The position numbers and the translations under genes were made by a program. Positions 132 to 13,801 of a DNA stretch of 20,140 nt are shown one piece after another. This stretch comes from a virus. Location of the stretch: the IMG/VR virus record IMGVR_UViG_3300044619_000596, positions 1-20,140 of that record; one strand, 5' to 3'. The notes beneath the pieces are model-generated. The model had not been told where the DNA came from and did not search any database. It saw nothing but the letters and a program-made list of their open reading frames with translations. The first letter of the stretch is position 1. Each line of letters starts with the position of its first letter.

Positions 132-2162
132 TTATTTATTGTCTTTGATTAGTTTAACTTCGCAAGCATCTGTAGTGCAATACGCCTCGCCAACCGCATC
201 CGCCGCCATACCTGCGTACACTCCGGCAAAGTCGATCGGGAACAGCTTCATGCGAGCCTCTTCGTACTCACTCTCAGTAATCTGAGTATATGGCATCTGT
301 GGGTATACAGTGTTACCCATAGGCAAGAACGAAACAGTCTTCAGCTGACCATCATGCATGTGTAGGATTGACGCAATTGAGTCGGCTTCTTTCTCCGGGT
401 CAAAGGTCACAGTTACTGATACAGAGTTATCTGACCAATACCGTTGAGTTACAACCGCAAGAGCAACCTTTTCATGTACAGACACTTCCTTCTCCGCACG
501 CTTCGCATTAGTTTTGATAGGGAAGAAGACCACCGAAGTTGTTTCCGGTGATTCGGAAGCAGGCTCTACCCGATAGTTTGCCATTTTGAACAATGGGAGC
601 ATTGGGTCAGAGTTAGCAAATCGAATTGCTCTATTAAAGAACTTACCTCCTGATGCCCAGTGAACTCCAGGGGATTCTCCTGCCAGAATAGATACAGTGC
701 CGGACGGCTTTACCGTTGTCATCTTGATTGATGGGCGCACACCCAACCATTCAGAGTAGGACTCGTCATACCCCTTGACTACAGCGTAGCCTTCATTGAG
801 CCAGTCACGAAGAATAGTCCAACCATTATTATCAGCAAAGTTAGCAATACCAGAAATTGATGTTCCAATACGACGGTTACGCTGCATGATTGCGTTGGTT
901 TCCTCCCAGTGAGTAGGGAGAAGTGTCACAGTTTTGGCATATAGATAAGCAAACTTCAAAGTCCTCTTGAAGTCTTCAAGCGAATCGTGTCTATTTAGAT
1001 ATGTTTCTACCAAAGTACACATCTCAAAAGACTCAAGACTTTGCTCAGCGCATGGGTTATACCCTGCTACTCGCCAATCCTTATTGTTAGGTGGGTCAAT
1101 CAAACGACCATATTTCCGGGAAACGTCCATCCAGACTACTCCCGGCTCACCGTTGCGGACAATGCCATCAATGATCTTTGAGAAGTCAGAGCCAACCTTT
1201 GCTTCTACAGAGTTGTTAGACATCCAAGCCCAACCCGGATTCTTTGGATCATAGGAGTTTCGTTCTGGGTAAACTTCTGCATTCTTTAAGTTCAGAAAGT
1301 CTTCGTCGTCAATTCTACCAATTAGAAGCTCAGCAGAGCGACGTACGTTTCCGCTTACAACACAAACCCCGATTAGGTTGCCGATATCAGCAATGTCTTT
1401 ACGGGTTAGCTTTTCTCCTGCTCTTCCTACAAACAATTTATGAATGTAGTTATGTAGTCGTTCTAGAGGTTCATGTCCGGCTGCTGTTCCACCAAACGTT
1501 TTGATTGGAGTTCCTGCTGGACGGATTTCTTTGTAATCAAATACTGGAGCCTTGCTATCTGGCTTGAGGTAGGCATTGATGAGGGACGTGACTGACTCGA
1601 CCCATCCTTCTCGGGTGTCTGGTACGACATATGTATCTCCTTGAGTTGGTTCATAGATAGTAAAGTCCTTGTCGGCCCCCTTATCGTCGAACCCTACTCC
1701 GACACCTAACATGGATGCTTCCATTAGGAAAGCAAATGGTTTTGCTGGATTGAGCTTTGTCATTTCAGTTGTAGAAACAAAAGCACAATTTTGTAGTGCA
1801 GCGGAATTCCTCTGCTCATTAACAATTGGAGTTCCCATTACCCATAGTCCACGTCCTGGTGGAGTCCACTTCAATTGGAACAACCGGTCATATGCTTCTT
1901 TGGCTGATGAAGCAGCCTTAGCATCTGACCAAGGAAGTCGTTGGGATTTAGCATGGTCTTTCTGAAGTGAGTACATGCCATTAATGACACGTTCGCAAAC
2001 CTCTACCCAAGTTTCTTTAGTACCGTTTTCTTTAAGACGAGAGTATGTTCTTAAAAAAGTAATTTCTCCGACACTATTACCCGCTGCGTCTGAATACCCC
2101 CAAGGAACAGTCTTACCTTTGTATGAGTTGACGAAGTCCTCGGCTAATTTAAAAGAAAACAA
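132..2162 (-). CDS. adenosylcobalamin-dependent (class II) ribonucleoside-triphosphate reductase
   Basis: Reduces ribonucleotides to deoxyribonucleotides with a radical made from coenzyme B12, supplying DNA precursors in the cytoplasm. The 676 residues fit the monomeric Lactobacillus leichmannii RTPR type, whose enzyme is slightly longer (about 740). The PWG...RTYSR-like N-terminus is seen at 20-42. A Cys at 126 (LQNCAF) matches the first active-site cysteine, and NPCAEQ with Cys371 and Cys382, eleven apart, matches the radical-bearing and second redox cysteines. A C-terminal pair, Cys662 and Cys667, has the spacing of the shuttle cysteines that regenerate the active site. All key residues appear present. 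The start is a TTG at 2162 with AGAAGGG seven bases upstream; an in-frame stop lies further up and there is no ATG in between. It follows the TIM-barrel-like gene by about 40 bases. Phages often carry this enzyme to outpace host dNTP supply. Confidence 0.95.
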   Translation of the reverse strand: MFSFKLAEDFVNSYKGKTVPWGYSDAAGNSVGEITFLRTYSRLKENGTKETWVEVCERVINGMYSLQKDHAKSQRLPWSDAKAASSAKEAYDRLFQLKWTPPGRGLWVMGTPIVNEQRNSAALQNCAFVSTTEMTKLNPAKPFAFLMEASMLGVGVGFDDKGADKDFTIYEPTQGDTYVVPDTREGWVESVTSLINAYLKPDSKAPVFDYKEIRPAGTPIKTFGGTAAGHEPLERLHNYIHKLFVGRAGEKLTRKDIADIGNLIGVCVVSGNVRRSAELLIGRIDDEDFLNLKNAEVYPERNSYDPKNPGWAWMSNNSVEAKVGSDFSKIIDGIVRNGEPGVVWMDVSRKYGRLIDPPNNKDWRVAGYNPCAEQSLESFEMCTLVETYLNRHDSLEDFKRTLKFAYLYAKTVTLLPTHWEETNAIMQRNRRIGTSISGIANFADNNGWTILRDWLNEGYAVVKGYDESYSEWLGVRPSIKMTTVKPSGTVSILAGESPGVHWASGGKFFNRAIRFANSDPMLPLFKMANYRVEPASESPETTSVVFFPIKTNAKRAEKEVSVHEKVALAVVTQRYWSDNSVSVTVTFDPEKEADSIASILHMHDGQLKTVSFLPMGNTVYPQMPYTQITESEYEEARMKLFPIDFAGVYAGMAADAVGEAYCTTDACEVKLIKDNK

Positions 2163-2201: not shown

Positions 2202-3719
2202 TTAATCTATTTGCTCAGAGATTATTCTAGTGGTATCCGCCTCAGAAATCCCACCGTTCGGTAGCTCCTTTAGGGTGTTAGCTTTATCACCAAATAGTGC
2301 TGACAGTACACCGCCTGAAGTCTGGCGTTCTACGGTTAATTTGACAAACTCTTTATTTTCTTCAAGTTCTTTCAAACTCTTAACAATCTTAAATAGTCTA
2401 TCAATCTCTTGACCAGTGTTAGGATCCGGGTAACCGCCGTTTAGTTCTTCAGCAAATCTAGCAAAAGCAACACGGGCACCCTGCATCTCAATGATGGCAT
2501 TTAGTAAACCCTTAAGTTGGTCTTTAGTCTTTACTTCAACTGGCAAATTAAAGGCACAAGCATTTTGTGGCTTAAATGCGGGACAGTTAGCAGCAACAAA
2601 ACACGTATCGCATTGGCGCAAACTAGTGTGTGTAGTTTCAATGATAGGAACGTCTCTTATCAGGTCTCTGCCGTCGCTATCTCTATCCAAAACAGTCTTA
2701 GTATTTATCGAAAATACTGGCAAAGTACGCGTTTCTGATGCATCTCTTGCTACTAAACCAGGGCGTTCTACTGCAGAATCTTTCCGCACCTCAACACCTC
2801 TGTTATCAGGATCTATACCCATAGTTTCCGCAGAACCTGGACTATCTATGTCCACACTGTTATCAGATAACTTCTTGTCATTATCTACTATGGTTAAGTG
2901 CGGCGGCTTCTTTTTATCCAACGATTTCTCCAGCTCTAGGTACGACCAAATGGCGAGGCGAGTTACCTCATTACTATCATCATTAAGAATCTTGTCAAAG
3001 TCTAGTCCCGCTTTTTGTATAACGTTCTTATAACGGGGGCGAGCTTGGTCTTTTTGTTTCTTCTGATATCTAACTAGTCTAGTGGTATCCCAGACAATAG
3101 TTTCACCTCTCATCATTGGCGATAGCCACGAAAGAGTGCTTGCAGTTTCCAAAGGAACCTGTCGAAGGTTGTCTGGCTTGGCACAACCTAGTCCGTGGAA
3201 CTTAGTACCAAACTGGCTCTGAAGGGCCCTGGTGCGTCCTGAGAGGGTTGTATCGCTATCTATGGTCTCTCCTAATAGGGCGACGTTTTCCCATTGTTCA
3301 GAGAGCGAGAACAGGGCAGCATGCCCCATTTCTGGTTTCCATACTGGCCAGTATTTGTCTTGCAACTCAAATCCTAGGGTTTTCCTTTGGTCGGATATCC
3401 AGTCAGATCCAAGTACTTGGGAGTCGAACTCAATTACCCCGGCAATATGATCATAGTTATTGGCAATGAAATCCTCAAAAGCCGCAGCATAATCCTGCAG
3501 CTCACGGGTGCTTAGCCCAGCTGCATCTGCGTGCCGGCCGCCGCCATCGAGGTAAACCTTGACGTCGCTTGGGTACTTCTCTGATAATAGATAGTTCTTA
3601 GTCTTGGGCAATCCACGTTTAGCTAGGCCCCAGTAGCTCACTGATATGTGCTGTACACCCGAATCAATAAGAAGTAGTCTGTGGGACGGAACTTCCCCGC
3701 CCATAAATACCAGGTTCAT
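2202..3719 (-). CDS. phage TIM-barrel-like protein, possibly related to TGT/DpdA transglycosylases, with C-terminal Cys cluster
   Basis: 505 residues, ATG overlapping the stop of the HAD-like gene by four bases (ATGA), so the two are translationally linked. The N-terminal ~230 residues alternate predicted strands and helices, with conserved-looking patches: YLDGGGRHADAAG (57-68), EFDSQVLGSDW (97-107), YWPVWKPEMG (123-132), FHGLGCAKPDNLR (174-186) and TASTLSW (192-198). That layout (strand, FHxLG, then a Ser/Thr-Trp patch) recalls the tRNA-guanine transglycosylase barrel and phage DpdA relatives, which swap guanine for 7-deazaguanines. I cannot prove this by eye, and no deazaguanine synthesis gene is visible. 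After a disordered linker (270-360) comes a CxxC-x5-C-x8-C cluster at Cys370, 373, 379 and 388, a likely zinc or iron-sulfur site, and then a helical C-terminus. The usual TGT zinc motif is not seen. Function should be regarded as unknown. Confidence 0.6.
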   Translation of the reverse strand: MNLVFMGGEVPSHRLLLIDSGVQHISVSYWGLAKRGLPKTKNYLLSEKYPSDVKVYLDGGGRHADAAGLSTRELQDYAAAFEDFIANNYDHIAGVIEFDSQVLGSDWISDQRKTLGFELQDKYWPVWKPEMGHAALFSLSEQWENVALLGETIDSDTTLSGRTRALQSQFGTKFHGLGCAKPDNLRQVPLETASTLSWLSPMMRGETIVWDTTRLVRYQKKQKDQARPRYKNVIQKAGLDFDKILNDDSNEVTRLAIWSYLELEKSLDKKKPPHLTIVDNDKKLSDNSVDIDSPGSAETMGIDPDNRGVEVRKDSAVERPGLVARDASETRTLPVFSINTKTVLDRDSDGRDLIRDVPIIETTHTSLRQCDTCFVAANCPAFKPQNACAFNLPVEVKTKDQLKGLLNAIIEMQGARVAFARFAEELNGGYPDPNTGQEIDRLFKIVKSLKELEENKEFVKLTVERQTSGGVLSALFGDKANTLKELPNGGISEADTTRIISEQID

Positions 3720-5718: not shown

Positions 5719-6300
5719 TTATTTATACATTCCAGCGGCCTTGCGCTGCTGGGTTACTACGTGGGACTTAACTGGACAAAAATCACAAAGAAAGACGTTA
5801 GTACCTGCTGACTTAGCAGCAGACATCAAACCGGCTTCTTTACGAAGTTCAGCGGTGTTCTTTGGAACAAGACGCTTGTTCTTAGACCGCCAATCGGTGC
5901 AACCTTCTTGTGGTCGAAGGTGCTCACTATAGCACTTCATAGCATCGTCGTAAAACGTTGCTTTAGTAGTGTAATAGTCTGGGTCAATATCTGCAAGACC
6001 GCCGCCTACCTTGTTACGTAGGTTCTCAATAACCTGCTTCTTAACTTCAGGGCGTGAGTAAAGCTTTACTCCGATCTTAGATAGAAACCCGTTATGAGGA
6101 ATTCCGGCAGACTCGTGCTTTTCAACAAGAATCTGAAGAGTTACATCATCGTCTGGGTGACCTTCAAAATCAGGCAGTTCTTCAATTGTTTTACAGTTGT
6201 AGCAATACAACAAACGAAGTTTAGGACCATCGTCCTTAATCTCTGTGTACGTGCCTTCATCTGCGGGCTTACCGCCCTGACCCAAGATAGGTATACTCAT
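5719..6300 (-). CDS. unknown phage protein with two CxxC pairs
   Basis: 193 residues. Two CxxC pairs, Cys33/Cys36 (LLYCYNCKTIEEL) and Cys172/Cys175 (FLCDFCPVKSH), lie at opposite ends and could join in one zinc site; two more cysteines (about 122 and 133) are in the middle. The remainder is charged and mixed helix/strand. Similar proteins with a short N-terminal YCxxC patch occur in actinobacterial phages as hypothetical proteins, from memory. The ATG has a strong GGAGGATAAT site. Its neighbours are a TipAS-like protein upstream and an acidic protein downstream, probably one transcript ending at 5342. Role unknown; nucleic-acid binding is possible. Confidence 0.75.
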   Translation of the reverse strand: MSIPILGQGGKPADEGTYTEIKDDGPKLRLLYCYNCKTIEELPDFEGHPDDDVTLQILVEKHESAGIPHNGFLSKIGVKLYSRPEVKKQVIENLRNKVGGGLADIDPDYYTTKATFYDDAMKCYSEHLRPQEGCTDWRSKNKRLVPKNTAELRKEAGLMSAAKSAGTNVFLCDFCPVKSHVVTQQRKAAGMYK

Positions 6301-6314
6301 ATTATCCTCCGATG

Positions 6315-6701
6315 TTATAGTGCTACTTTGTACGAATATTGCTTAAGCATATTGTAGACGTAAGTATTTAACCCGTCCGCATACTTATTAAAAAATGATA
6401 TGTAGTCCTTGTCAAGAAGAGAACATAAAGCTAAATTTGCTATGACTGACCTATCTACCTTGAAGAACCAATCCTCTAGGTGAGAGCAAAGCCTATCAAA
6501 GTCTTCCTCTGAAAATTGCTGGGAATTTTTTAGCTTGTCCGTCATATGCTCAATCATTTCGGTTGCTTCTTCAGCCATAACAACCCAATCTTGCCTTGAG
6601 TACTGCTTCATTCTTTCCTGAGCCTCTAAAACATATGGGTCATTTGGTACTTTAGATGACCAATTTTTCCACAATTGTAGGCAGGTTACCTCTTCATCCA
6701 T
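6315..6701 (-). CDS. stand-alone TipAS-like (antibiotic-recognition) domain protein
   Basis: 128 residues, all helical. From 20 to 122 it follows the TipAS domain pattern: an AxxRxKxYSxxDW start (AQERMKQYSRQDW, 27-39), a long acidic helix, a central helix ending with W78, then DKDYISFFNKYADGL (97-111) and a closing helix near NMLKQY. In the family this globin-like domain sits behind a MerR HTH (TipAL of Streptomyces) and traps thiopeptide antibiotics and related compounds. Here no HTH or second domain precedes it, so this is equivalent to the short TipAS form, a sequestering or sensing protein. It starts 12 bases after the previous gene. The ligand is unknown, and the N-terminal ~18 residues are unassigned. 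Confidence 0.75.
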   Translation of the reverse strand: MDEEVTCLQLWKNWSSKVPNDPYVLEAQERMKQYSRQDWVVMAEEATEMIEHMTDKLKNSQQFSEEDFDRLCSHLEDWFFKVDRSVIANLALCSLLDKDYISFFNKYADGLNTYVYNMLKQYSYKVAL

Positions 6702-6713
6702 ACGACTACCTTA

Positions 6714-7907
6714 CTACAGGTTTGGGTTCTTACCTACTTCGAACGCAGCTGACCGCGCTTCACGGCCTGCATTTTTGTTAGCTTCAATGTTCCGTAAACG
6801 CTCAGCCTCAGTGTTCATAGATAGTTCAGCAGTGGCTTGCTTATCTTGACGAGCTTGACGTCCGGCAGCGAAGCGCTCAATAATCCCAACCTCTGGAGCT
6901 TCTTTTTCTAAACCTGTTAGGGTAACTTCTATTCTTCTATTAGCAGTCTTAGAGAACCCACGAGGTCTTACTCCTCCTTCAGGAATTCCAGCGGCTTTTC
7001 GTTCAGCTCTACTTTTAATTGCTTCTAAAACTTCATTTTTTTGACCGTCGGACATAGAAACTTTTTCAAAAGGTTCGCCTCTACGTTTTGCTTGAAGTTG
7101 GTTGTAAACTTTGTCAGCTAAACCAGAACCCTGACCTAAAGGCAAATCTTCAGAATCTCCTGGGCCTTTGGGTTTCTTTTTACGACCACCACGGCTGTTA
7201 GGTACTCCCTTTTTATTAAACTTATACTCGGTAGGTGTACTTGAAGGGGCTGTAGGTGCTTCTTCAGAAACAGTGTTATCAGAAGTATTGTGGCCACCTC
7301 CGGTACGAACACGTTCTAACTGACGTTCTAATGTAGAAGCCTGCTCTGCTGGAGTACGTCGACTCTTAACTTCCTCAAGATGAGTAGTTCTTGTACCCCC
7401 ACCTTTTCCTAAGTCTTCGTTTACACGACCAACTAGAGCGTCTTCTCCTGTCATACCTTTCTTAACAAGCTCACCCTCTAGATAGGTTCTTTTTTCTCGT
7501 TCTTGAATTCCTCGCCATGCGGCAAATTTTCTTACATCTTCAGGGTGTATTCGGCGTTGGCTAACGCCAGTTTCTCCACGACTAATACTATTTTCTATGA
7601 TCTTACCTAGATGCGTTGCACAAACTGGAGTTTGCTGATGCTCAGCCTCTCCCTCAAGCTGTACAAAATGTGTTGCGGGACCTGAATGCCCCCATCCACC
7701 TGAATGAGTAGCCTCGCAGTCCAAAGTTTTTTTAATTTCATGTGTTTGTAACTCTGGGTTAAACGACTGTCGTTTAATAGGGTCTAGTAAATCAGTATTA
7801 TCTGCAAAAGAACCAGACGGAGTATGTTCTACTTTTGTGTATTGTGGCTTTTCAGAAAGTACGGTCGTAGAAGGAAGACTTGCACGGTCTTCATAATTCA
7901 AAGCCAT
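6714..7907 (-). CDS. large charged unknown protein, likely disordered
   Basis: 397 residues with long charged, Gly/Ser/Thr-rich stretches, for example 205-260 (including a Lys/Arg run RGGRKKKPKG), and a helical, Arg/Ala/Glu-rich C-terminus (about 315-390). Residues 63-100 hold C64, H68, H74, H80, H89, C95 and H98, a possible metal-binding or small folded patch. I do not recognise a family. It starts with an ATG three bases after the stop of the 84-residue gene and is followed by the TipAS-like gene. Size and place among small unknown genes would suit a scaffold, internal virion or DNA-binding protein, but nothing decides it. Confidence 0.7.
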   Translation of the reverse strand: MALNYEDRASLPSTTVLSEKPQYTKVEHTPSGSFADNTDLLDPIKRQSFNPELQTHEIKKTLDCEATHSGGWGHSGPATHFVQLEGEAEHQQTPVCATHLGKIIENSISRGETGVSQRRIHPEDVRKFAAWRGIQEREKRTYLEGELVKKGMTGEDALVGRVNEDLGKGGGTRTTHLEEVKSRRTPAEQASTLERQLERVRTGGGHNTSDNTVSEEAPTAPSSTPTEYKFNKKGVPNSRGGRKKKPKGPGDSEDLPLGQGSGLADKVYNQLQAKRRGEPFEKVSMSDGQKNEVLEAIKSRAERKAAGIPEGGVRPRGFSKTANRRIEVTLTGLEKEAPEVGIIERFAAGRQARQDKQATAELSMNTEAERLRNIEANKNAGREARSAAFEVGKNPNL

Positions 7908-9221: not shown

Positions 9222-9378
9222 TCATAGCTCGTTTCATATGTTTGCCGTAAAGTGCATTGCGACAAGTTGGGCACATTTTGCCATCTGTATACATTGCTTC
9301 AACTGGGGTCATAAATAGGCCGCACTTAGGGCACGCAACACTACCATCATAGATAGTTTCAGTTACAAACTCATCCAT
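9211..9378 (-). CDS. 55-residue zinc-ribbon protein
   Basis: ATG at 9378, overlapping the end of the BldC-like gene by eight bases. Two CxxC knuckles, Cys16/Cys19 (VACPKCGLF) and Cys36/Cys39 (MCPTCRNALYGK), seventeen residues apart, make a classic four-cysteine zinc ribbon, followed by a basic tail (KHMKRAMSER). Such ribbons bind nucleic acid or protein. Placed directly after a DNA-binding protein, it may act with it, though that is inference from position. Confidence 0.7.
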   Translation of the reverse strand: MDEFVTETIYDGSVACPKCGLFMTPVEAMYTDGKMCPTCRNALYGKHMKRAMSER

Positions 9379-9589
9379 TGTTAGGGTCCACCAGCTTCTC
9401 TACCTGGTCTGCGTAGAAACGTCTATGGCCACCTAATGTACGCATAGCTTCTAATTTTCCAGCGCTATGCCAACGTTTAACTGTATCTGGATGCACTTTA
9501 AATCTTTCTGCAACTTCAGCTCCGGTCATTAATTCCCGAGGCTGTACTCTTCTATTAGGGTCGTTAGACCTATCTTTTGGGGCGCTCAT
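9371..9589 (-). CDS. BldC-like MerR-family DNA-binding protein
   Basis: 72 residues from the ATG at 9589, which shares one base with the upstream stop (TAATG); a GTG six bases earlier is possible but less likely. Residues 20-63 match the BldC/excisionase-like winged HTH: LMTGAEVAERFKVHPDTVKRW (HTH) followed by the wing AGKLEAMRTLGGHRRFY, including the family hallmark RTLGGHRR. BldC is a short developmental regulator of Streptomyces that binds DNA head to tail as a filament-like array. This phage copy could act on phage or host promoters, or be an excisionase-type accessory, but no integrase is visible. It lacks any effector domain. Confidence 0.85.
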   Translation of the reverse strand: MSAPKDRSNDPNRRVQPRELMTGAEVAERFKVHPDTVKRWHSAGKLEAMRTLGGHRRFYADQVEKLVDPNNG

Positions 9590-9939
9590 TACCACACGCT
9601 TTCTGAAACGTTGCGAGAAGTTCCTTGGTATGAAGTTGGAGATTGTGAATAGTCTGTTCTTGTTGGCTCAAACTGAGTATCTACATCCATAACATCCATA
9701 ATCCCAATAGCACGTGTACGGTACCCGTAACGTGGTGGGAACAACTGAATCTGTGGAAGAGGCGGGCGAACAATATCTTGAATCATTGCCTTAGGAAGAG
9801 TTACTGAGCGTACAGCCCTAGTTAACAAAGCTTCTTGTGTGTCTTTAAACGGCCCCATGTAATCGTAGCGGATCTGTGGATCCTCAGAGAGGATAGGGCG
9901 GTTCTTACTATGATCATAAACTGAATCTTGTGATTGCAT
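9589..9939 (-). CDS. unknown phage protein
   Basis: 116 residues. A central patch rich in Pro and aromatic residues (RPPLPQIQLFPPRYGYRTRA, about 58-77) lies between a charged start and a Ser/Thr/Gln-rich end. No motif known to me. It is coupled by one-base overlaps to the small membrane peptide before it and the BldC-like gene after it. A virion or tail-associated protein is possible. Confidence 0.65.
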   Translation of the reverse strand: MQSQDSVYDHSKNRPILSEDPQIRYDYMGPFKDTQEALLTRAVRSVTLPKAMIQDIVRPPLPQIQLFPPRYGYRTRAIGIMDVMDVDTQFEPTRTDYSQSPTSYQGTSRNVSESVW

Positions 9940-11227: not shown

Positions 11228-13801
11228 AACCTACTGCGCCTATTCGCAGCACTAATCCTTACACTATTCCTCTTTATATTGGGACAATATTCAGCACACG
11301 CCGAAGAACCAACCGTAACTACGGTTGTAGTCAGCCCTGCCTCCACAGATTCTTCTCCAAATCCTGTGACTTCTCCTGCTCCCGTAGTAGTTGTTGTGAC
11401 AACAAGCGATACTTCGACTTCCACGGTTCAGACCACTGGATCCCCCCAACCAACCACCCAGACGCAAACCCAAACAGTATTAGTAGTTCCAACTGTAACC
11501 TCCGTTCAAGAAAAAATTGAGGTTGCAACTGTAGCACTATCTACTGCGGTAGCCGTAGCTACCCCTGAGCAACAGTCTGCTGCTGCAGCCCCTGTGGTAA
11601 CAGCTCAAGCAGATATTACAACAGCAACGACCGCGGTTGCGGTAGCCGTGACAGCAGTTGCAGCCGTAGATACTCAAACAGCAGTAGTAACGCAAGCCGT
11701 TACTAACGTAGATTCAGCTACAGCAGTAGTGGCTACAGCCACAGCAGCAGTAGAGTCTCAAACAGCAGTAGTAGCAGTTGCAACAACTAACTTAACTAAT
11801 GCTCAAACTACATTGACCGCTCTTCAAAATACCCCTTCAGATAGCAAGACCTATACAACCGAAGGCTATGTAGCCCCTGTTGCTCCTGAAACCCCAACAG
11901 TTACTACAACAACGCTTCCAGTCATGTACGACGGCTTTACAAAAATTAACACGCCTTTTGACATAAAAATGGGTAACACAGTTTATGAAGGTCAAGGAAC
12001 AAACAGCCAAATTTATGTGACTTCAAAAGCAACTATTACCTTTGGTAATGGCGACTATAACTGGTGGGATTTTCCAGCAGGAGCACATATCTCAGTCTTT
12101 GGTAGCGACTTTCAAAGTGCTGGACCTAACTCATCTACGGTAGTAAAGACTACTGAAACTACTCTAGAAGTCGACTGGAATCTTCACAAGTTTGCGGAAC
12201 CAAATAGCCCTATTACAAATGTAAATTGGAAAATGACAGTCAATCCAACAACAGGGGAATGGACTGGTGTTGGAACCGTTGCGGGAAACACAACACAACT
12301 GCATAACGGACCACGTATTGGTGTTCGTGAAGAAGCAGGTCAAGCAGTAAAACCAATGACCAATGTAACCAATGAAACTTTAACGGCTCAAATTACAAGC
12401 CAAACAGCAGTAGTCGCTGATAAAACAGAAGTTAAAGCGGTTGAAGTTGCTGTGCTTACATCTCTTACAGAAGTGAAAACAACAGCAGAGACAACACTTG
12501 CAACAGCTCAGACCACACTAACAACAGAAAATCAAACATTGACTACCCTCCAATCAACGGCTAATACAGCGGTTACTACAGCAAATCAATTAGCAGATAC
12601 TGCGACTGCTAGCGTAGCAGTAGCGGTTGCTGCTCTTCAAGTTCCAACACCTATAGTTCAACCAGTGGTCCCTGCGCCCACCCCGGCTCCAGAACCTCAA
12701 CCCGTTCCTCAACCTGAGCCAACACCTGCTCCCCAGCCTGAGCCTGTACCGGTTCCTCAACCTGAGCCAACACCCGTACCTCAGCCAGAGCCGCAACCAC
12801 AGCCTGAGCCTGTGCCAGAACCAGCCCCACAGCCTGTGCCTGTGCCCGAGCCTGAACCATTACCCGTTCCTGAACCTGCTCCAATAGAACCACCTGTGCC
12901 CGAGCCTTCTCCAGAGCCCGTTCCAGAGCCTGAACCTGTGCCTGAGCCACCTACTGAGCCCTCCACAGAAGAGCCATTGCCACCCATAGAAGAGCCACAG
13001 CCACCGGTAGAGCCCGAAGCACCACCCGTAGAGCCCGAGGCGCCTGAGGAACCTGCCACACCCGAGGAACCAGCACCAGAACCAGTGTTACCAGAGCCAG
13101 AGCCAGAAAATCCGTCCACAGAACCATTAGAACCTCCTATTGTAGAGCCAGAGCCTATCACAGAAGTTGAAGAGGTTACGTCTGCCGTAGAGGATGTTCT
13201 ATCTGATGGCAAGCTTTCTGCTGCTGATGCTGAAGATATTATGGATGCTCTAAACGCAGATGGAGAAGTTACTGCTGAAGAAGTAGGTGCGTTATCTGAG
13301 GCCCTATCTGCTGATGGCAAATTAACTACCGCTGAAAAAGAATTGGTAGCTGAAGCACTCATTGAATCTGTAGCCCCAGGTGAGACTCTCACATCAGAGC
13401 AAATTCAAGAGGCAGGCATTGAGTATAAGGACCTACCGGAAGATACTCCTGTCGAGGTTAGGCAGGATGAAAACGGAAATGAAGTTATCATTACAGCAGA
13501 CGTTGCTGCAGCCCTCGTGCTACTAGAGAACCCTGCGGAGTTAATTGGCGCAATATTTGATGACCCCGGTCAAGCCCTGCAAGCACTTGGAAGTATCGGT
13601 GCTGATATGTCAGATGAAGAACGTGAAGAAGCGACCGAAATGGTAGTTGCTGCCGTTGTGGCTGCAGGCGCTGCTATTAATGCAGTTGGTGCAGCAACAG
13701 GAAGCACTGGTGGAAGCACTGGTGGTTCTGGTGGCGGAGGTAGCTCTGGTGGCGGAGGTCCATCAGGAGATTCTAAAGGCGTTAGGAGACGTAAACCTTG
13801 A
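11225..13801 (+). CDS. secreted repeat-rich envelope protein (signal peptide, beta domain, Pro-rich stalk, DGKL repeats)
   Basis: 858 residues if started at ATA 11225; the first TTG is at 11279. Residues 2-25 form a signal peptide: NLLRLF, a long hydrophobic core, then QYSAHA before EEPTV, a typical signal-peptidase site. Next: Thr/Val/Ser/Pro-rich region (26-95), Ala/Thr/Val coiled-coil-like repeats (about 95-215), a beta-rich domain with Trp and Gly (about 233-380, including NTPFDIKMGN and NYNWWDFPAG-like text GDYNWWDFPAG), a second Ala/Thr helical part (385-470), a Pro-Glu-rich stalk (473-645), three tandem 18-residue DG repeats at D661, D679 and D697, an acidic helical part, and a Gly/Ser-rich end (826-848) closing with RRRKP. 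It is thus exported, probably to act in or on the cell wall. No catalytic motif seen. It leads the lysis operon, with the next gene overlapping by four bases. Tail fibres lack signal peptides, so that reading is disfavoured. Confidence 0.85.
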   Translation: MNLLRLFAALILTLFLFILGQYSAHAEEPTVTTVVVSPASTDSSPNPVTSPAPVVVVVTTSDTSTSTVQTTGSPQPTTQTQTQTVLVVPTVTSVQEKIEVATVALSTAVAVATPEQQSAAAAPVVTAQADITTATTAVAVAVTAVAAVDTQTAVVTQAVTNVDSATAVVATATAAVESQTAVVAVATTNLTNAQTTLTALQNTPSDSKTYTTEGYVAPVAPETPTVTTTTLPVMYDGFTKINTPFDIKMGNTVYEGQGTNSQIYVTSKATITFGNGDYNWWDFPAGAHISVFGSDFQSAGPNSSTVVKTTETTLEVDWNLHKFAEPNSPITNVNWKMTVNPTTGEWTGVGTVAGNTTQLHNGPRIGVREEAGQAVKPMTNVTNETLTAQITSQTAVVADKTEVKAVEVAVLTSLTEVKTTAETTLATAQTTLTTENQTLTTLQSTANTAVTTANQLADTATASVAVAVAALQVPTPIVQPVVPAPTPAPEPQPVPQPEPTPAPQPEPVPVPQPEPTPVPQPEPQPQPEPVPEPAPQPVPVPEPEPLPVPEPAPIEPPVPEPSPEPVPEPEPVPEPPTEPSTEEPLPPIEEPQPPVEPEAPPVEPEAPEEPATPEEPAPEPVLPEPEPENPSTEPLEPPIVEPEPITEVEEVTSAVEDVLSDGKLSAADAEDIMDALNADGEVTAEEVGALSEALSADGKLTTAEKELVAEALIESVAPGETLTSEQIQEAGIEYKDLPEDTPVEVRQDENGNEVIITADVAAALVLLENPAELIGAIFDDPGQALQALGSIGADMSDEEREEATEMVVAAVVAAGAAINAVGAATGSTGGSTGGSGGGGSSGGGGPSGDSKGVRRRKP
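12642..13160 (+). repeat. Pro/Glu-rich tandem repeat coding region
   Basis: Codes for PEP/QPEPxP-type repeats in the stalk of the secreted protein. At DNA level a 23-base identical copy occurs at 12704-12726 and 12752-12774, a period of 48 bases or 16 residues; other copies are degenerate. Such regions are prone to length change. Confidence 0.8.
13202..13372 (+). repeat. three 18-residue DGKL-type repeats (half EF-hand-like)
   Basis: Within the secreted protein, D661, D679 and D697 each begin DGxhxxxE-type units of exactly 18 residues (DGKLSAADAEDIMDALNA, DGEVTAEEVGALSEALSA, DGKLTTAEKELVAEALIE). The loop acidic residues resemble a calcium-binding half EF-hand or dockerin-like loop. A very similar unit is in the next-but-one gene (residues 59-76). 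Confidence 0.75.
13693..13766 (+). repeat. Gly/Ser direct repeats
   Basis: Two copies of GGAAGCACTGGT (13699-13722) followed by two near copies of TCTGGTGGCGGAGGT encode a flexible Gly/Ser tail of the secreted protein. Likely a linker, not a separate element. Confidence 0.7.

Follow-up and report, generated by a model that had tools for sequence, protein, structure and literature searches.

The TipAS-family gene and its genomic neighbours

The window, i.e. the whole stretch of DNA analysed, is a 20,140-base IMG/VR virus record that contains an ORF of the TipAS family (Table 1). The ORF is read on the minus strand from an ATG at position 6701 to a TAA at 6315-6317 (128 codons). The stop-free frame around it comprises just 131 codons, with an in-frame stop three codons upstream, so that no N-terminal domain is hidden in this frame. 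The MerR-type HTH and coiled coil of TipA-class regulators are absent from the 128-aa product, which contains a single domain and not an AlbA-style tandem. The original prediction of a stand-alone TipAS domain on a virus record was thus borne out, with no HTH in frame.

Table 1. Features at the TipAS locus of the window
Feature	Position	Strand	Evidence
Stand-alone TipAS-family domain gene, 128 aa	6315..6701	-	PF07739 35 bits; MerR-fused TipAS HMM E 5.2e-5; model vs 2mbz Z 11.7
Upstream flank, variable 397-aa gene	6714..7907	-	No Pfam match above cut-off
Downstream flank, conserved 193-aa phage gene, marks insertion site	5719..6300	-	Relatives in 55 loci, up to 95% identity
Short gap before 193-aa gene, ribosome-binding-type stretch	6301..6314	-	GGAGGATAATATG in window, L029, L030, L031, L037

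Family membership was assessed with profiles. The motifs that had suggested TipAS were present (A27xxR30xK32xY34S35xxD38W39 and F104xxY107xxG110L111), and the Pfam profile PF07739, the check proposed for them, matched residues 23-122 with profile positions 14-117 of 117 (E 2.2e-8; cut-off 23.8 bits). The orthologue on contig L005 scored 29.3 bits and relatives 28.8 bits, and none of nine control versions of the ORF (eight shuffles and one reversal) gave a TipAS match. A second HMM was built from 14 TipAS domains of full-length MerR regulators or the PDB, none of them stand-alone (one typed TipAS, ten from plasmid records, and three from phage records, all three MerR-fused). It was applied to 155 sources (the window and loci, leaving out seven loci that were duplicates, extracts or irrelevant), which gave 10,558 stop-to-stop frames with a minimum length of 50 codons. 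E values were 5.2e-5 for the window ORF and 0.0057 for its orthologues; the remaining matches at E<=10 were only the 13 source loci and one further regulator (L023). Profile-profile alignment of the phage family with TipAS was colinear over 23-123 (E 2.3e-4, probability 44, with a thin phage profile).

Single-sequence searches with the phage protein found no TipAS in phages, the PDB or plasmids and no relative in genome contigs, and the four-sequence phage profile found no TipAS match in the PDB. The kinship is thus visible only to family profiles. A profile including the phage rows matched TipA, SkgA and Lmo0526 in the PDB, and AlbA only at E 0.15-0.29. Searches of PHROGs and NCBIfam with the ORF gave no meaningful match. 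Judged from these profile matches, the ORF at 6315-6701 is a real TipAS-family domain.

Other genes of the window were also inspected. The phage ribonucleotide reductase encoded at 132-2162 (minus strand) contains an insertion domain of B12 type; its Pfam barrel domain scores below the cut-off. The gene at 2202-3719 (minus strand) is queuine tRNA-ribosyltransferase/DpdA-like (PHROG 887, 33-34% identity to BRock-like phages), which suggests deazaguanine modification of the DNA. A 74-aa MerR/HTH_17 protein, BldC-like by eye, is encoded at 9371-9595 (minus strand). The 840-aa ORF at 11279-13801 (plus strand) appeared by eye to be Thr/Val/Ala-rich, followed by Pro/Glu repeats and a Gly-rich basic end; its product is possibly surface or tail related.

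Copies, genomic sites and selection

Copies of 83-84% identity were found on three further IMG/VR contigs, bringing the known records to four. A scan of the viral collection with the degenerate pattern ERMKxYSxxDW returned only the three known contigs, a pattern that more divergent copies could escape, and scanning viral sequences with a TipAS alignment brought no confirmed copy. Contig L010 was rejected as a relative, as its match falls, by eye, in an integrase-like ORF.

Two genomic sites were distinguished. In the three relatives, TipAS lies between the genes of a DnaB helicase and a Toprim primase (L005:7997-8406), its start overlapping the helicase stop (ATGA). The window copy lies instead between the 397-aa and 193-aa genes. 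Nucleotide similarity between the window and L005 was confined to 6316-6702 (85.8% identity); the 500-base flanks gave no meaningful alignment, and no neighbour was common to both sites.

TipAS was found in front of the 193-aa gene relative in none of the 55 loci holding one, and the ribosome-binding-type stretch is common to relatives without TipAS. In the closest collinear locus (L029), some 30 bases separate the end of a relative of the 397-aa gene (58% identity in the best segment) from the 193-aa gene, and TipAS is absent. At the position of TipAS, L068 and L073 hold ORFs of 154 and 170 aa, respectively, according to a mechanical ORF list.

For the helicase-primase site 81 loci were searched, of which 76 had both genes; L084 (same record as L005) and four loci without helicase were excluded. 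The two genes most commonly abut (34 loci, <=25 bases); the others are separated by 54-59 bases (15), 112-122 bases (13), more than 300 bases (11) or TipAS (3), counts that are not independent events, since many loci are near-duplicates. In the 112-122-base class, the ten loci L085-L087, L090-L092, L095-L097 and L118 were examined and held a small basic ORF of about 43 aa, whereas L145 held other sequence; L093 and L147 complete the class. At L120:5531-6001 the junction is occupied by WhiB (54 bits) together with a cysteine-containing ORF. The junction therefore looks like a cargo slot, which is empty or filled by the basic ORF, by TipAS, or by WhiB with the cysteine-containing ORF.

The window and L005 copies differed by dN 0.082 and dS 0.647 (dN/dS 0.13 by NG86 and 0.20 by YN00), and the gene is under purifying selection. 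GC content is 0.377 in the gene and 0.441 in the window; for L005 the values are 0.341 (TipAS copy) and 0.415 (contig). Profiles and synteny show the TipAS gene to have been acquired horizontally; it is a mobile, selected, AT-rich accessory gene.

Phages with either site belong to one broad group, given the cross-occurrence of two genes: an L005-type DnaB (34-56% identity) occurred in all 16 large records selected from the set with the 193-aa gene, and the 193-aa gene (33-51%) in all 16 selected from the helicase-primase set. Across 136 complete related records, made up of four named phages and 132 IMG/VR contigs of which many are short, no TipAS match exceeded the cut-off, the single weak match (G021) reaching 17 bits. 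Named kin are the BRock-like Streptomyces phages (DpdA-like protein 33-34%, DnaB about 30% identity), in both of the two examined of which helicase and primase adjoin, and Actinomycetia phage DSL-LC01 from Dishui Lake (ribonucleotide reductase gene, 69% nucleotide identity). Because of these kin and of WhiB, the window phage probably infects freshwater actinobacteria.

TipAS was also surveyed in cells and other phages. Of the 296 Actinomycetota genomes sampled, 93 gave a match, for the most part in frames whose length would accommodate a MerR regulator; six lay in frames below 175 aa, two of which (G211 and G244) were examined closely. G211 was rejected as a lone cellular TipAS, being a MerR-TipAS gene split by a frameshift; in G244 no MerR-like ORF was seen by eye beside TipAS. 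The two thus yielded one lone cellular TipAS, a free-standing ORF of 127 aa (74 bits) at L276:1687-2070, from a 7.9 Mb genome of the same sample. The phage collection contained 12 records with a TipAS match at E<=1. The three examined (L013, L014 and L015) encode full-length MerR-type regulators of 241-266 aa, and three more are annotated as MerR. In Streptococcus phage Javan105 (L013:3665-4390) the complete MerR-TipAS gene lies between the terminase large subunit and portal genes, an odd location for a regulator. TipAS also appears once in a gene table of Staphylococcus (PMC9414953).

Predicted fold and ligand-site residues

Structures were predicted with AlphaFold2. A model from the four phage sequences alone was poor (pLDDT 53.5, six helices), and its fold search gave a best Z of 4.2, with AlbA (9qbm) at rank 24 (Z 3.4) and TipAS unlisted. 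A second model was made after addition of 21 Streptomyces TipAS domains (24 rows; pLDDT 91.0, pTM 0.82). Its best solved match was 2mbz, TipAS with bound promothiocin A. Foldseek placed it there with probability 1.00 and TM 0.77 but an E of only 0.024, no match reaching E<=0.001. VIA aligned 128 of 128 residues with 2mbz (Z 11.7, rmsd 2.9), where helical bundles with Z under about 13 may reflect a common arrangement; apo TipAS (1ny9, Z 10.2) followed, and then globins (6.5-5.0), the first non-TipAS row being at Z 6.5. Among the predicted viral proteins of BFVD, no match to the model was found at E<=0.001.

The structural model called for by the original prediction thus gave a TipAS/globin-like fold, a match that is partly circular because TipAS rows were present in the alignment. 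The predicted fold is support, not proof, of membership, and the sequence evidence is independent of it. Profile match and predicted fold, the two points on which the prediction could have failed, were both obtained.

A thiopeptide trap of the TipA type, in contrast, found no support. In the alignment the two cysteines of TipAS (207 and 214, domain positions 97 and 104) are replaced, by V82 and N89 (K89 in the relatives), and TipAS residues 1-15 lack a counterpart; the 24-row model predicts an N-terminal helix at residues 3-17 of the phage protein. In the literature, macrocycles are described as bound in an N-terminal pocket of TipAS (PMC6078987), and the alpha6-alpha7 region as a lid that closes over the ligand and contacts the HTH (PMC7762955). 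Since the N-terminal stretch without counterpart belongs to this lid and both cysteines are gone, covalent thiopeptide capture and signalling to DNA both appear unlikely. The TipA changes F123/F126 or I112/F123 are reported there to lower drug affinity hardly at all (PMC7762955), and F123, F126 and I112 fall in the part absent from the phage protein. Identical in all four phage copies are W11, W14, Y23, Y34, W39, W78, F79, F80, F103, F104 and Y107, while W14, Y23, Y34, D38, W39, S64, H74, D97 and G110 are invariant across the 24-row alignment.

Proposed role and comparison with known systems

Tentatively (probability roughly 0.38), the phage protein is read as a free-standing, non-covalent small-molecule sponge serving infection. 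As it lacks an HTH, it does not regulate transcription alone. Acting in the cytoplasm, it would hold a small aromatic or amphipathic molecule without a covalent bond, and sequestration would shield the infected cell, or replication of the phage DNA, from that molecule. From the gene order in the relatives, its synthesis would coincide with that of helicase and primase as replication starts. The reading has two precedents. In Streptomyces TipA the short isoform, TipAS, predominates and sequesters the drug (PMC7762955), and AlbAS, the portion of AlbA that binds the drug, holds albicidin in a Trp-lined tunnel (PMC6078987). The latter source reports that single AlbAS halves fold and bind albicidin at only 0.6 and 3.4 uM but fail to neutralise it; one AlbA-type domain is thus insufficient there, which counts against the sponge reading.

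A bolder, doubtful version of the sponge reading is counter-defence against chemical immunity: the mobile TipAS, in some phages produced along with the replication genes, would sequester antiphage natural products of the host community that target DNA or translation, for example anthracyclines, gyrase poisons or peptides. Such a counter-defence sponge would, to our knowledge, be the first. A limited literature search found no phage-encoded protein countering small-molecule defence among the titles listed. Antiphage defence by small molecules is established in bacteria, and no replication of phage Bas33 was detected under daunorubicin (PMC13250531). The pyrrolobenzodiazepines (PBDs) bound by AlbA are DNA-targeting.

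A repurposing of the TipAS fold as a replication accessory, with loss of its binding to small molecules, is rather unlikely; such a protein would bind helicase or primase of the phage, or a replication protein of the host. The absence of the cysteines and of part of the ligand pocket would fit, as would the placement between helicase and primase, with overlap of the helicase stop, in three of the four phage records. The window copy, however, lies elsewhere between other genes, and the helicase abuts the primase in 34 of 76 loci while the slot holds other genes such as WhiB, giving it the look of a cargo site.

Improbable, too, is a decoy that binds an inducer or subunit and so mutes a host TipA-class MerR regulator, or a split TipA whose partner is the phage MerR/HTH_17 protein. 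In favour, TipAS domains occur in 93 of the 296 Actinomycetota genomes, and the 74-aa MerR/HTH_17 protein is encoded on the same strand. According to PMC7762955, TipA dimerises through its coiled coil and the alpha6-alpha7 region touches the HTH; a coiled coil is absent from the phage protein, as is part of the alpha6-alpha7 region. A distance of 2.7 kb separates TipAS from the HTH gene, homologues of which were found in three of 55 related loci (available flanks), none of them with TipAS. Equally low is the chance that the protein senses a host metabolite and passes the signal on to another phage protein instead of acting as a sponge: TipAL does use its TipAS domain as a sensor (PMC7762955), but the phage protein has no output domain, and no neighbour is shared by the two genomic sites.

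A protein outside the TipAS family, either a helical bundle formed by chance or an all-alpha pyrophosphatase of MazG type, is highly improbable: EExxE (44-48) and ExxD (66-69) of the window protein form a MazG-type pattern, and a similarity to DR2231 (Z about 4, 60 residues) was seen with the poor model from four sequences, but Pfam MazG gave no match up to E 10, the TipAS profile matches proved specific in the controls and the 10,558-frame scan, and the MazG idea was dropped because E48 is not conserved (K in three of three relatives).

TipAS domains have so far been known as bacterial drug sensors or drug traps. Now that phages are seen to carry such a domain as a separate, mobile gene under selection, it becomes a testable question whether phages make proteins that soak up small molecules able to stop infection. 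The TipAS family itself is known; what is new is its occurrence as a phage-borne, free-standing, mobile domain.

The closest likeness of the phage protein is to the short isoform TipAS of S. lividans TipA (1ny9, 2mbz, 2mc0), as a free-standing domain with a predicted fold fit over 128 residues. Sequence identity is 16-21% with Streptomyces domains and 9-16% with the TipAS members of the wider alignment. Unlike TipAS, the phage protein has no cysteines, 15 fewer N-terminal residues and no long TipAL form, and it is phage-borne. AlbA/AlbAS of Klebsiella are likewise TipAS-like domains with drug binding, of albicidin (PMC6078987) and, by the AlbA drug-binding domain, also of pyrrolobenzodiazepines (PMC12144233). 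AlbAS, however, is a tandem of two such domains, whereas the phage protein is one. The MerR-TipAS proteins of the Streptococcus phage Javan105 type also place TipAS on a phage record, but in the three examined are full-length MerR-type regulators. The lone cellular ORF L276 resembles the phage protein in being a single TipAS domain without HTH, but it is cellular and far closer to the family profile.
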